A stretch of 64,000 bases of DNA from contig CALVUI010000001.1 in the NCBI GenBank assembly GCA_944363565.1, positions 273,676 through 337,675 on the forward strand, written 5' to 3'. The position numbers were made by a program, and so were the translations under genes. The stretch's first letter is position 1. Every line of letters begins with the position of its first letter. The DNA comes from an uncultured Bacilli bacterium. GTDB lineage: Bacteria; Bacillota_I; Bacilli_A; RFN20; CAG-826. The notes beneath the pieces are model-generated. The model did no database searches. It had not been told where the DNA came from and worked only from the letters and a program-made list of their open reading frames with translations. This document shows positions 7,528 through 60,293 of this stretch, in pieces.

Positions 7528-8793
7528 TCAATTTCCCTTGGTCAACCTCGCCACCCTTCCCCAAGGCGGTTCCGCTTCCTCGTTGTTGATGACCCATAGG
7601 ACCGGGATGCCATGCGCTTCCTCTTCACTAGGGAAGGAGGCTTTTCCATCGGTCAAGATGACGATGAGCCTAGGCTTTTCCGTCGCCTTCTCGACGTAGG
7701 AGAAGACGGGCCCGAAGGATGTCCCGCCCCCTCCGATGGGCTTGATCTTCAGTAAATCCCTTACCGATTCGAAAGGGTAGGGGCCGTAAAGGCCACTATC
7801 GAAGAAGCAAAGTTTGCCCTTGAGGCGTCCGCCGAGTTCTTCGATGGCTCCCTTGATTTCGGCGTAGGCTTCCGCTAGTTCATGGTCCTGCATCGAACCG
7901 GAACAGTCGACGCAGAAGAGGAGGTCTTCGGCCTTGCTTTCCCTTTCGCCATAGGAAGGGAGGAAGAAGGGGGAATCGGGAAAGCGCCGATCGGGCGGCA
8001 AAAAGCCGTAGTCGGTGGTTTCCTCTTCCAAAAAATCGCGTAGGAGGAAGCGCCAGGAAAGGACGTTGGACTTAAGGAAGGGGAGGTGCCTTTCTAGTCC
8101 TAGGGGCATGTCCCCGCATCCCTTGCGGCGGATGGTCAAGACATCGAGTTCCCCTTCCATTTCTTCTTTTTCCTCCTCTTCGAGGCTTTCCCATCGTCCG
8201 TGGTCATCGATGATCCCGCAGCTAGGCCCGTCGATGGGGGATTGGCCCTTGCTAGAGACGGCTCCGCTCTTGGTTTCCCTCGGCCCCTTTCCGTCCCCTT
8301 CGGTTTCGCTTGGGGTCTTGGGCTTGGACATCTTGCCTCCCGCCTTTTTGAGGAGGGCATAAACGGCCTCGGCCGAGGATTCGTGGCCTTCATGGCCTTT
8401 GGGATCGAGGTGGTATGCCGGCCTTCCCCCGATGCTGATGGCGGAAAGGTTTCCACCGGCCTCCAGGAGGATGAGGCTATTGACGACGATGTCGCAGGCC
8501 AGGTTCCAGGCCAAGGGGTCGTAATTGACCGAGGAAGGGCGTCTGAAGGGGTGGCGCAAGACGACGTGGAGGGTTTCGTGAAGCAAGAGGAACTCCGTTT
8601 CCTCCTTGCTCAGCTTCGAAAGGAAGGCAGGAGAGAAATAAAGCTTCTTGCCGTCGGTCGCAGCCGTATCGAGGCCTTCGTCCAACATTAGGGGCATGTT
8701 CAGCAAAACGAGGCCATAGAAGGGGAATTTGCGGAGGATTTCGCGCCGGGCCGAAAGAACCCTTCGGGCCAGTTCCCGGTAATCGCTACTCAT
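7528..8793 (-). CDS. VWA-like / putative metallopeptidase-domain protein (DUF2201-type)
   Basis: 421 residues from the ATG that overlaps the stop of the MoxR gene; an in-frame ATG five codons earlier is also possible. The N-terminal domain carries LLLHETLHVVLRHPFRR (HExxH zinc site) followed by LACDIVVNS, as in VWA-like proteins of the DUF2201 group. The middle is a low-complexity linker. The C-terminal domain begins with LLFCVDCSGSMQD, a MIDAS DxSxS motif, and ends with LIVILTDGKAS, as in von Willebrand A domains. Such proteins pair with MoxR AAA+ ATPases and are thought to act in assembly or remodelling of target complexes. It is the last gene of a helicase-MoxR-VWA operon. Confidence 0.82.
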   Translation of the reverse strand: MSSDYRELARRVLSARREILRKFPFYGLVLLNMPLMLDEGLDTAATDGKKLYFSPAFLSKLSKEETEFLLLHETLHVVLRHPFRRPSSVNYDPLAWNLACDIVVNSLILLEAGGNLSAISIGGRPAYHLDPKGHEGHESSAEAVYALLKKAGGKMSKPKTPSETEGDGKGPRETKSGAVSSKGQSPIDGPSCGIIDDHGRWESLEEEEKEEMEGELDVLTIRRKGCGDMPLGLERHLPFLKSNVLSWRFLLRDFLEEETTDYGFLPPDRRFPDSPFFLPSYGERESKAEDLLFCVDCSGSMQDHELAEAYAEIKGAIEELGGRLKGKLCFFDSGLYGPYPFESVRDLLKIKPIGGGGTSFGPVFSYVEKATEKPRLIVILTDGKASFPSEEEAHGIPVLWVINNEEAEPPWGRVARLTKGN

Positions 8794-56969: not shown

Positions 56970-57566
56970 TCAGAGGAATTTGGCCTTGTCCGCTTCGTAT
57001 AGCGGCCTGATCTCATCGACGCCCGTTTTGCCCGACCTGGCTTTTTTCATCGCCGATACCTGCTCCGCGGTGAAGCGATCGGCGGATTCGTATCCCCCGT
57101 TGATCGCGTAATGGAAACACAGGAAGTTCCAGAGCCTCTTCTGGGCGTAATTCCTGGGATCGCTTTGGTCCTCAACCTCGAATAGGAACTTTCCGTAGGA
57201 TCTCAATTCCCTTTTGAGGAGATCTGGCTCCTTCGAAACATCGTACTTGTAGGGCTGCTCCGCCCCGTGCACGAGCTTGTAGAACGGGCCTTCGTGCAGA
57301 AAGTAGTTGACCTCGTCGTCTTTCTTAGCGGCGTAGGTCTTTTTCGTTTCGTACACGCAATCGACCTTCATTCCCTCGTGGTAGAACCCCGCGCTTGCCT
57401 TGTCTGGGCGCGGCCGGTTCAGGAAGATCTTGAGGTCGAGGTCACTTGAATCCTCCTCCCCAAGGATGGCCTGCGATCCGGTGACATAGATGCTTTCGAT
57501 GTATTCTTCGTAGATATGCTGCTTCCCGAGCCATTCGAGAAGCCTTGATTTGGCTAATTTCGACAT
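56970..57566 (-). CDS. Nucleotidyltransferase-fold protein overlapping the DGR RT
   Basis: 198 residues from the ATG with GGGAGGAC upstream. The Pol-beta-like nucleotidyltransferase signature is complete: GS at residues 30-31 (YVTGSQAILGEEDSSDLDLK), the acidic pair Asp42 and Asp44, and the third acid Asp69 in MKVDCVYE. The C-terminal half is helical and charged. The gene overlaps the RT by 13 nt and so is co-translated. It is not an Avd, which is a four-helix bundle of about 120 residues. Its role might be nucleotide or RNA-end addition to the template or cDNA, or an unrelated phage function; both are inference. Confidence 0.7.
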   Translation of the reverse strand: MSKLAKSRLLEWLGKQHIYEEYIESIYVTGSQAILGEEDSSDLDLKIFLNRPRPDKASAGFYHEGMKVDCVYETKKTYAAKKDDEVNYFLHEGPFYKLVHGAEQPYKYDVSKEPDLLKRELRSYGKFLFEVEDQSDPRNYAQKRLWNFLCFHYAINGGYESADRFTAEQVSAMKKARSGKTGVDEIRPLYEADKAKFL

Positions 57567-58594
57567 AAGTATGTCCTCCCTTTTCCGCATAGGCTGAACA
57601 GCCTCTTCAGGCAAATCGATTCTACGACGTGGTGCCTGATGTACCCAAAACCGGCTTTCGTGCTTTTTATCCAGCCGTAGAGGCTCGCGAGCCGCTTGCC
57701 CTGTCGTACCGTGGCGACTCCCGTTCTCTCGATCCTCTTCGCGAGCCGCCCGAATCTATGAAAAGTCGGCTTCCTGATGAGAGTTTTCGACTTCGTGAAC
57801 CGATAGCCGAGGAAGCTGATCTCGTCTCCTTTCTCGAGATTCAGGATCTGCCATTTCCCGTTCAGCTCAAGCCCGATCGAATTCAAATATCCCGCTATTT
57901 TGCGCAGGTAGTTGTGTATCTTCATTTTGTTGTTCGCGAGGATCACGAAATCGTCGACGTACCTCACGTAGCACGGGGCCCTGAGCGTTTGCTTGACGAA
58001 ATGGTCGAATTCCAGCAAATAGTAATTCGCGAGGTATTGGCTCGACACCCTTCCGAGTTCCAGGCCTCTGCTCTCGCATCCGATAATCGATTCGTAGAAC
58101 CGCATGAAATTATCGTCGGCTATCCTTTTCTTTAGCATGGCGAGCAGCCGGGCCTTGTCTATGCTGTCGTAGAATTTCCTGATATCCATCTTCAGGCAGT
58201 ATTTGTACTGCCCGATGTTCTTCTCGACGTACCTTTTTCCATCGGCGATCCCTCTTCCTTTGAGATTGCCCACGCTCCATCTGTAGATGGATCTCATGAC
58301 GACTTTCTCAAGGACCTCGCCGAGCATCGCATCGTAGATTTGGTTTGGGTAAAAAGGGTTGATGGTTATCAGCCTCTCCTTTCCGTACTCCAGTATCCTT
58401 CTGGTCCTCGGCCGTTCGTTCGGTATGGCTATCGACGACATGTCCGCGTATATCGTATCGACATAGCGGTCTAGGTTGCCGAGCACTTGGGCCACGTCGT
58501 TCCTTTTCGCTTTTCCCTTGGCCGTGGAAACAATAGTTCTGCGAATCGCCGGTCTGTCGACCAGCTTCGCATACAGGTTCTTGTGCGTTTTCAA
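57554..58594 (-). CDS. DGR reverse transcriptase
   Basis: 346 residues, the usual DGR RT length, with no maturase, HNH or integrase domain. RT motifs: CLKMDIRKFYDSI (catalytic Asp137), LGRVSSQYLANYYL at 180-193, RYVDDFVILANN (Asp214, Asp215) and DEISFLGYRF. The [ILV]GxxxSQ form at 180-186 is the hallmark that separates DGR RTs from group II intron and retron RTs (QGxxxSP). It copies the TR RNA into error-prone cDNA at adenines that replaces the VR. The start is TTG with AGGAGGTG 8 nt upstream. It lies 138 nt downstream of the TR and overlaps the nucleotidyltransferase gene. Confidence 0.95.
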   Translation of the reverse strand: MKTHKNLYAKLVDRPAIRRTIVSTAKGKAKRNDVAQVLGNLDRYVDTIYADMSSIAIPNERPRTRRILEYGKERLITINPFYPNQIYDAMLGEVLEKVVMRSIYRWSVGNLKGRGIADGKRYVEKNIGQYKYCLKMDIRKFYDSIDKARLLAMLKKRIADDNFMRFYESIIGCESRGLELGRVSSQYLANYYLLEFDHFVKQTLRAPCYVRYVDDFVILANNKMKIHNYLRKIAGYLNSIGLELNGKWQILNLEKGDEISFLGYRFTKSKTLIRKPTFHRFGRLAKRIERTGVATVRQGKRLASLYGWIKSTKAGFGYIRHHVVESICLKRLFSLCGKGRTYLCRN

Positions 58595-58732
58595 AACGTC
58601 CGCACCTCCTTTCTTTGCTTAACCCTCATGGGTTTTCGACGAGCTACTGGCCCATGCCTGATTCGGGTGTTTTTCGCCTAGGGGCGAGGGGCTTGCCGCT
58701 TCTTTCACTCAAACCGATTCGTTTAAGCAATC

Positions 58733-58845
58733 ACGAGCGGCCCAATTGTCATTGGCATTCTCGGACGACCTGTCCTCCAAGGACCAAAGACCGAGGGAGG
58801 GCCAATCGCCATTGTTCATGCTGTTGTTGTAGCTGCCAAAGGCCA
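58733..58845 (-). repeat. DGR template repeat (TR)
   Basis: 113 bp, offset by exactly 235 bp from the VR. The coding strand would read FGSYNNSMNNGDWPSLGLW, SLEDRSS and ENANDNWAAR, with clusters of AAC, AAT, GAC and TAC codons, the adenine-bearing codons used by DGRs for wide amino-acid choice. It lies between the VR hairpin and the RT gene and is not itself part of an expressed protein. Of 24 adenines in this strand, 11 are changed in the present VR. Confidence 0.95.
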
Positions 58846-58919
58846 AAGACACCACCCAACCGGAGCCGGCCGCGGCAAGTCCCTTATCCCTATTCTATCC
58901 GATAATATCGAATGTTTCA

Positions 58920-58938
58920 TTAAGGGGACACCCCTTAA
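58920..58938 (-). other. Hairpin/cruciform downstream of the VR
   Basis: TTAAGGGG, a 3-nt loop and CCCCTTAA form a perfect 8-bp stem, starting 8 bp beyond the target stop codon and 29 bp beyond the VR. In the Bordetella phage DGR an 8-bp-stem hairpin in the same place is needed for efficient target recognition. It could also act as a terminator for the tail gene. Confidence 0.8.
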
Positions 58939-58946
58939 CAACCCCG

Positions 58947-60293
58947 TTATTCAGGGCGTTTGCAAAGACGAGCGGCCCAATCGGCATAGGCATACTCGGA
59001 CGACCTGCCCTCCAAGGACCAAAGACCGAGGGAGGGCCAATCGCCATCGTACATGCTGTAGGCGAAGCTGCCAAAGGCCATGAAGATTGATCTCGCCTTC
59101 GGATAGGTTGTGTCTCCGTACAAGTAATATTTGGAACAATAGTAACGACGATACGCGTCGCCGGTACCGCCGTCTCCTTCGTTGTCATACTCTACTTCCG
59201 CTTCGCCGAGGGGCCCAGCTGAAGCCGTCGGAAGCGATAAAAACCAATTGTTTGAATCGGTGCTTACTTTCGTTATGACATTTGTCATACTATCAGAACC
59301 TCTTGCCTCGACGTCGATGTCCGATTGAATATAGCTTTCGTCGTTGGCGGAGTTGGCTTCGAAAAGATTCGAATAGCAAAGTTTTCCAGAGCTCCAGTCC
59401 ATGTAAATGCCCGTTTGTAGTTCTGGTATCCCACTAATCAAGTCCTCGAATCCAAAGATCTTATTTGAGCAAGTGACCTTATTGATGCCACATACGGATT
59501 GGATGCTAGACGTGCTTCCGCTTTGGCTCTTCATATCGTAGCCATTGACGTGTCCGTCGTTTTTGAGGACGTCGAATAAATCAAGACGCCCGAAATAGAC
59601 TGGTATTAGAAGCCTCATGAGGCTCGCGAACATCCAGTTGCAGATGTTGTAATCGCCGTCGACCTTCGAAGAGGCCTTGGCGAGGGAAACGTAATCCCCG
59701 AAATTTTTAGAGACTTGGTAGTACTGCGTGCCGGATTTGCTGGTGAGTTTTGTCGGGTTTGCGTTGTTGTCAAAACCCGTTTTGTACTTTGCGACCCATC
59801 TCCCAGGCACAGGGTCCCTCTTCACCTCGTTGACGTAATTGTAGAAGAAAGGGTGTCGTTCGAATCCTTCCTCTTCATCTTTGTCATCAGAATGTTTGAC
59901 GGAGTAAGCTACGATTTCGCCGTCCGGAGTCACCTGGTCTTTTCTAAACGAGAAAGAGGGGATCCAGATAAAAACGTTCCCTTCCGAGTCGGTATCCTCC
60001 GTGAATTTGAAGAATCCGTCCAGCGGACTGCTAAATTCTATGACTTGACCATTATCAATTTTAGACCAGTCCTTTCCTACTGCGTCATAGGTTCTGGTGA
60101 GGACTTTGCTTGATCCACCGAGGCCGGTAACGCCCAAAATCCTGAGTGTCTTGCTAGCTTCAACTTCTTCTTTTGTCGCATAGGTATCGGCGATTACCCT
60201 TCCCTGAGCGTCTTTGCTCGCCCTCTCGGCGAATAGTTTCTTGAATTCCGGCTCTCCTTTCTTCTTGAGCCGGTCGATCAATGTTTCTGACAT
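58947..60293 (-). CDS. DGR target: phage tail-tip protein with C-type-lectin-like variable domain
   Basis: 448 residues, GGAGG 7 nt before the ATG. The N-terminal 60 residues are helical and charged (SETLIDRLKKKGEPEFKKLF, KDAQGRVIADTYATKEEV), typical of tail-fibre attachment. The central part is beta-rich. The C-terminal 180 residues fit the formylglycine-enzyme/C-type-lectin fold of DGR variable proteins: WIPSFSFRKDQVTPDGE-like beta segments, SKYYLYGDT, and the end FGSFAYSMYDGDWPSLGLWS through YADWAARLCKRPE with the diversified residues on the presumed ligand face. It is the probable host-receptor binder, changed by the DGR to track surface variation. Confidence 0.9.
   Translation of the reverse strand: MSETLIDRLKKKGEPEFKKLFAERASKDAQGRVIADTYATKEEVEASKTLRILGVTGLGGSSKVLTRTYDAVGKDWSKIDNGQVIEFSSPLDGFFKFTEDTDSEGNVFIWIPSFSFRKDQVTPDGEIVAYSVKHSDDKDEEEGFERHPFFYNYVNEVKRDPVPGRWVAKYKTGFDNNANPTKLTSKSGTQYYQVSKNFGDYVSLAKASSKVDGDYNICNWMFASLMRLLIPVYFGRLDLFDVLKNDGHVNGYDMKSQSGSTSSIQSVCGINKVTCSNKIFGFEDLISGIPELQTGIYMDWSSGKLCYSNLFEANSANDESYIQSDIDVEARGSDSMTNVITKVSTDSNNWFLSLPTASAGPLGEAEVEYDNEGDGGTGDAYRRYYCSKYYLYGDTTYPKARSIFMAFGSFAYSMYDGDWPSLGLWSLEGRSSEYAYADWAARLCKRPE
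58968..59080 (-). repeat. DGR variable region (VR) in the tail-protein gene
   Basis: 113 bp matching the TR except at 11 positions (plus-strand 58982, 58984, 58988, 58994, 59008, 59048, 59051, 59060, 59062, 59063, 59065). Every one is T in the plus-strand TR, meaning A on the coding strand. Ten codons change, all altering the amino acid: residues 410-412, 415, 416, 429, 434 and 436-438. The 3' edge is the G+C-rich TGGGCCGCTCGT, after which TR and VR diverge by non-adenine changes, as expected for the IMH boundary. Confidence 0.96.

Follow-up and report, generated by a model that had tools for sequence, protein, structure and literature searches.

The window analysed here, a stretch of 64,000 nucleotides (nt) from an uncultured Bacilli bacterium (genome G000), carries on its minus strand what is very probably a complete diversity-generating retroelement (DGR) in a prophage, accompanied by a gene for a nucleotidyltransferase-like (NTase) protein. 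Read along that strand, the order is a target gene with a variable repeat (VR), a hairpin, a template repeat (TR), a spacer, a reverse transcriptase (RT) gene and the NTase-like gene. These elements occupy one end of an approximately 38-kb prophage on contig G000:C1, which was delimited by its gene content and includes genes for a serine integrase, terminase, portal, capsid, tape-measure and Dit. The identification as a DGR is based on the target gene with its VR, the TR, an RT of the DGR type, repeat ends resembling the initiation of mutagenic homing sequence (IMH) and its TR counterpart (IMH*), the hairpin, and a divergence of the repeats confined to adenines. All coordinates given for the window refer to features on the minus strand.

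The retroelement and its target gene

The TR (58733-58845) and the VR (58968-59080) were compared base by base, and the initial annotation proved exact in its coordinates and counts: both repeats are 113 nt long and differ at 11 sites, all of them adenines in the TR. On the coding strand 11 of the 24 TR adenines are changed and 13 are unaltered in the VR, against none of the 89 other bases, and the chance of all 11 differences falling on adenine among 113 sites is 4.3e-9, which excludes random divergence as had been argued. A recount also gave the same 10 altered codons, every one of them amino-acid replacing. The claim that no other base is changed holds within the 113 nt but not beyond them, as the repeat extends a further 6 nt, to 58727 and 58962 respectively, with two more mismatches (G>C and A>T) followed by TTGC in both copies; over the resulting 119 nt (89% identity) 12 of the 13 mismatches are at adenines. 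This extension is likely the IMH*/IMH end, a part in which mismatches between the two repeats are to be expected: the IMH-like 3' end of the VR spans 58962-58980, and the IMH*-like 3' end of the TR (58727-58745) has two mismatches to it. In the bacterium's own genome (1.26 Mb, 95% complete) the repeat sequence is present at two places only, the TR and the VR, which are 116 nt apart.

The VR covers codons 406 to 442 of the 448 of the target gene (58947-60293), at its 3' end and close to TR and RT. The target product is predicted to be a tail-tip or receptor-binding protein, with tape-measure and Dit genes lying upstream, and the DGR likely rewrites the end of this protein by error-prone reverse transcription. 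The protein has no Pfam match, its structure model (pLDDT 30.5) is unusable for judging a C-type-lectin fold, and the gene gave no match in 50,697 phage records.

The RT (346 amino acids (aa), 57554-58594) starts with TTG preceded by AGGAGG and matches RVT_1 (E 3.5e-17) and phrog_1423 (E 1.1e-73). Its best match among solved structures is 8ub7 (E 8.4e-18), listed as a reverse transcriptase, which I take to be the DGR RT of Bordetella phage BPP-1. The motifs LGRVSSQ and YVDD agree with the DGR type, (I/V/L)GxxxSQ and YxDD, the SQ motif being kept, according to PMC3521204, in 90% of the DGRs that DiGReF found. In IMG/VR neither the RT as a single sequence nor the TR core gave a match. The database homologue P0004 is 64-84% identical to the window RT over residues 1-257 and identical at all 89 residues from 258 to 346, a pattern suggestive of recombination within the gene. 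Between TR and RT lies the spacer of 132 nt (58595-58726), partly conserved with the related genome G103 described below, and its role would by analogy be that of sp in BPP-1 (PMC12875486). No Avd gene is present between VR and TR, where the 116-nt gap is too short for a gene, and a search of the own genome with the bAvd profile PF22296 found nothing; as the same profile gave the Avd of genome G015 only an E of 0.047, a remote Avd is possible.

Related elements and the hairpin

Among 279 genomes of the host order, the own genome included, 37 have matches to a DGR-RT profile (E <= 1e-10), and at least 13 DGRs were confirmed by a TR/VR pair in 11 genomes (G000, G103, G015, G087, G154, G166, G210, G195 and G599 with one each, G168 and G556 with two). 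This number is a lower bound, as the weaker RT matches were scanned only in part; those scanned yielded no convincing pair (locus L032 gave plain repeats), nor was one found in G603, where the RT lies near the contig start. Adenines account for 169 of the 180 mismatches in the 11 measured pairs, one of them that of the window (12/13, 11/13, 19/22, 16/16, 17/20, 22/22, 15/15, 19/21, 11/11, 16/16 and 11/11). VR and TR are 79-165 nt apart in eight of these 11 pairs, so that the lack of Avd at its usual place is common in the order, and 522-599 nt apart in G015, G168 and G195, each of which has an Avd (phrog_3206).

The DGR of G103, a genome of the same order and another family, is among the closest to that of the window and has an NTase as well: the RTs are 41%, the NTases 26-28% and the target proteins 29% identical, the G103 target having a BppU_N domain. 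Gene order, a 25-nt hairpin block and CTTTGCAAA at the IMH edge are common to both elements, the IMH edge (CTTTGC and the following AAA) being found at both VRs of G103. Unlike the window, G103 has a second VR (L169:1400-1525, G103:C5 approximately 7550-7676), which carries the IMH edge and the hairpin block as well. It lies in another gene (278 aa) at a distance of 20 kb, and one TR serves both VRs. The second VR differs from the TR with 14 of 16 mismatches at adenines, the first with 11 of 13, and all 12 differences between the two VRs are at TR adenines. The spacers of the two NTase-bearing DGRs (58595-58726 in the window, L025 approximately 342-454 in G103) have islands such as AGGC-T-GGC-AGTAG and AGCAAAG in common, possibly a conserved RNA element judging from the sequence.

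The 25-nt block GGGGTTGTTAAGGGGTGTCCCCTTA (58921-58945) is the same at one G103 VR and has one base changed at the other. It overlaps a predicted hairpin with a perfect inverted repeat, TTAAGGGG-TGT-CCCCTTAA (58920-58938), with a stem of 8 bp, located 23 nt past the IMH end and 3' of the target stop codon. Perfect 8-bp hairpins with loops of 3-5 nt occur in four of 1498 overlapping 80-nt stretches of a 60-kb region, this one among them. A 61-nt stretch folded as DNA is predicted to form a further small stem as well and reaches -9.2 kcal/mol (z -2.3, with 5 of 200 shuffles equally good). When up to three mismatches are allowed, GGGGTTGKTAAGGGGTGTCCCCTTA is found at three places in the 279 genomes, each with no mismatch to the pattern: 3' of the window VR and 3' of the two G103 VRs that lie 20 kb apart. 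Read backwards the pattern has no match in these genomes, and in IMG/VR the pattern has none either. Published DGR hairpins have GC-rich stems of 7-10 bp and 4-nt GRNA loops at 4-34 bp from the VR (Guo 2011, PMC3240598). Such hairpins are a usual, not a universal, DGR feature, and that of the window fits in stem length and distance; its 3-nt loop TGT, as at both G103 VRs, departs from the GRNA consensus, which stems from phage DGRs and is not defining, and half of its stem pairs are A-T.

The DGR of phage BPP-1 (mtd-avd-TR-brt) is similar to that of the window in the order of target with VR, TR, spacer and RT and in its phage target, as well as in the adenine-specific TR/VR differences, the IMH/IMH* mismatches and a hairpin shortly after the VR, as far as described in PMC3240598 and PMC12875486. 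The window element differs in that the VR-TR gap holds no Avd and the genome gave no bAvd match, in the loop and the A-T content of the hairpin, and in the NTase-like gene overlapping the RT end.

The nucleotidyltransferase-like gene

The NTase-like gene (198 aa, 56970-57566) starts with ATG preceded by GGAGG and overlaps the end of the RT gene by 13 nt. Its product has the signature of the polymerase-beta-type nucleotidyltransferase superfamily, GS...DxD and a third acid (G30, S31, D42, D44 and D69), placed as such in the predicted fold, for which Foldseek gives a probability of 1.0 on a model of pLDDT 74. The first four residues are invariant in four aligned sequences and the third acid is D or E. 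The Pfam scores stay below their cut-offs (Polbeta 15.9 against 26.9 bits, NTP_transf_2 13.8 against 21). The MntA antitoxin of type VII toxin-antitoxin systems was rejected as an identity (NF047752, 12.9 bits against a cut-off of 60). Structural alignments with HalB of the Hailong system and with AAD(9)-like aminoglycoside nucleotidyltransferases have 10-16% identity, and the shared fold does not show a shared substrate. A profile search of PDB sequences found nothing.

A search profile built from four sequences, those of G103 and G015 among them, gave strong matches (E <= 5e-80) in three of the 279 genomes, namely G000, G103 and G015, and all three genes lie downstream of a DGR RT. The G103 homologue was found from the window protein alone (E 6.8e-15), that of G015 with an earlier profile made without it (E 5e-12 among 6927 open reading frames (ORFs)). 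In G103 the RT and NTase genes overlap by 4 nt. The three genes accompany RTs of two clades: in a tree of 30 rows, G000 and G103 belong to a supported clade of seven (99/97), in which the NTase gene was seen beside these two RTs and the other five rows are P0003-P0007, and G015 belongs to another clade with the Avd-bearing G168 and G195 (100/99). As a separate observation, an ORF of 97 aa lies 3' of the RT in the Avd-bearing DGRs of G015 and G195 (L023:9370-9663 and L163:6474-6767, both minus strand), with C termini that resemble each other on inspection by eye (ITDDEF and LTDAEF).

When the window prophage was compared with the 66-kb contig of G103 by tblastn (E <= 0.01), only six of 332 ORFs matched, all within the DGR block: the target gene, the RT, the NTase and frames overlapping them. 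The comparison used stop-to-stop ORFs of at least 60 aa; more distant kinship of other genes would escape it. Searches of a protein database returned two NTase homologues, P0001 (99% identical) and P0002 (75%). Their source contigs agree in listed size with those of the RT P0004 (146,881) and of a target homologue, P0124 (36,746), respectively, and this equality suggests that P0001 and P0004, and likewise P0002 and P0124, are linked on the same contigs. In a phylum-wide sample of 392 genomes the sole strong match is the window's own, G103 and G015 not being among the matches, and the NTase alignments have no match in IMG/VR.

Five further genomes of the order have weak matches to the profile (E 0.0016-0.0084). 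Five frames with weak matches (E 0.0003-0.01) were inspected, in G577, G009, G006, G297 and G284. Those of G009 and G006 were rejected, as only the C-terminal part of longer proteins matches; G284, from outside the order, has an NTase-type motif in a longer frame. The G577 gene (L167:6517-6987, G577:C3) appears by eye to lie between a prophage tail gene and genes for small membrane proteins. Elsewhere in the window's prophage, outside the window itself, an S-adenosylmethionine synthetase is encoded (G000:C1:350143-351177, L020:12144-13178), with all three Pfam domains above cut-off.

Possible role of the nucleotidyltransferase and diversification by the element

The TR/VR pair by itself is a further member of the known DGRs, and the retroelement is known in kind; what sets the window element apart is the co-travelling NTase together with the unusual hairpin loop. 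As the strong homologues are all found beside DGR RTs and the block is shared with the G103 contig, the NTase-like protein may well be a working part of the DGR machinery. By analogy with BPP-1, the TR transcript with the spacer would be copied by the RT with errors opposite adenines (PMC12875486), and the cDNA would then replace the VR, guided by the IMH and the hairpin. The NTase could extend the 3' end of a nucleic acid by a single nucleotide or by a tail. The cDNA would be its most likely substrate, with the TR RNA as the alternative, and a cDNA tailed in this manner might be shielded from 3'->5' exonucleases. Loss of exonuclease I is reported to raise editing by a factor of 10 when measured by sequencing and of 19 with a reporter, and the entry of cDNA into the VR is described as incompletely understood (both PMC12875486). 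An enzyme that adds nucleotides to the cDNA 3' end would, tentatively, fit this exonuclease-sensitive step. The most far-reaching reading, with a probability of about 0.4, is a class of DGR with its own NTase as a working part. The enzyme would add a tail or cap to the 3' terminus of the mutated cDNA (or of the TR RNA), which would protect it from exonucleases of the host or mark it for homing, and the NTase would move between unrelated phages in company with the RT, the target gene and a landing site tagged by the hairpin. A function of the NTase as a plain replacement of Avd was rejected, as G015 has both.

Alternatively, the DGR may be an ordinary one and the NTase an unrelated phage gene at the junction of tail and lysis genes, for instance a modifier of host or virion parts, which is a real possibility if one short of probable. 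Several observations weigh against a DGR function. The NTase is missing from 10 of the 13 confirmed DGRs of the order (in G599 the contig ends within the RT), and no homologue was found in 80 viral RT loci (3524 ORFs, E <= 1), which are those kept as best, with TR/VR unchecked and some ending soon after the RT; with three of 13 and none of 80, the NTase is not a general DGR part. Avd, counted among four essential DGR components in one review (PMC10053308), was not found here. The window and G103 NTases have no match in the 50,697 phage records, and the window protein none above cut-off in Pfam, PHROG or NCBIfam, its structure model being of moderate quality. The G015 homologue was missed by the search with the window protein and needed a profile, the strong E-values come from a profile that contains G103 and G015, and in G015 the NTase is separated from the RT by the 97-aa ORF, with a gene of host-like appearance coming next. 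The gene of G577, a weak possible relative (E 0.0046), lies at a seemingly similar junction, and its contig gave no RT match (E <= 1e-10), so that the NTase could be a phage gene merely neighbouring the DGR; viral NTases of the same fold are, moreover, common in BFVD. However, a chance neighbour is at odds with three out of three strong homologues in 279 genomes standing beside DGR RTs of two clades, and with a G103 contig on which only NTase, RT and target gene are recognisably shared with the window prophage.

A fossil DGR, the VR of which was diversified long ago and is fixed now, is improbable. A single other allele is near enough to judge, but the RT frame with its YVDD, the TR, the IMH and the hairpin are all intact, and that allele speaks for diversification in nature. 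A search with the target protein gave two homologues. The first, P0123 (metagenomic, from a cluster of 38 members), is 93% identical with 32 residues different, nine of them in the 37 VR codons and 23 in the 411 others (Fisher p 5e-4). All nine fall within the 17 codons that have a TR adenine (p 2e-4), the residues at the 20 VR codons without one are identical, and each of the 37 VR residues of P0123 is obtainable from the TR codon if adenines alone are changed, taking the window TR as that of P0123. Residues 413 and 433 differ in P0123 though their codons are unmutated in the window VR. With its nine VR differences all at TR-adenine codons, this independent allele shows that the VR region has diversified in nature, and its changes at other adenine sites lend support to the repeated or recent mutagenesis proposed in the initial annotation. 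The second homologue, P0124 (76% identical), has a much different VR too, judged without its own TR. A plain duplication diverged by ordinary mutation and selection, finally, has next to no chance, as the base bias (all 11 differences at adenine, none at the 89 other bases, p 4e-9) is enough to refute it. The bias recurs in 10 other pairs of the order (157 of 167 mismatches), and a DGR RT adjoins the window pair.

As a DGR partner, the NTase is new relative to the literature searched, in which no DGR-associated nucleotidyltransferase was found; supplements and subscription papers lay outside its scope and may hold an earlier mention, and the term 'nucleotidyl' is absent from the main texts of PMC10053308, PMC8144416, PMC3521204, PMC6642488 and PMC12875486. 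The RTs of the window and of G103 are 41% identical, yet across the three VRs of these two DGRs the 25-nt block varies by no more than one base. It is thereby a marker by which target genes of this DGR type could be found, distant second targets such as that of G103 included. If the proposed role is true, an NTase that accompanies DGR RTs in different phages and in two RT clades would represent a new class of DGR protein, and would offer a handle on how the cDNA enters the VR.
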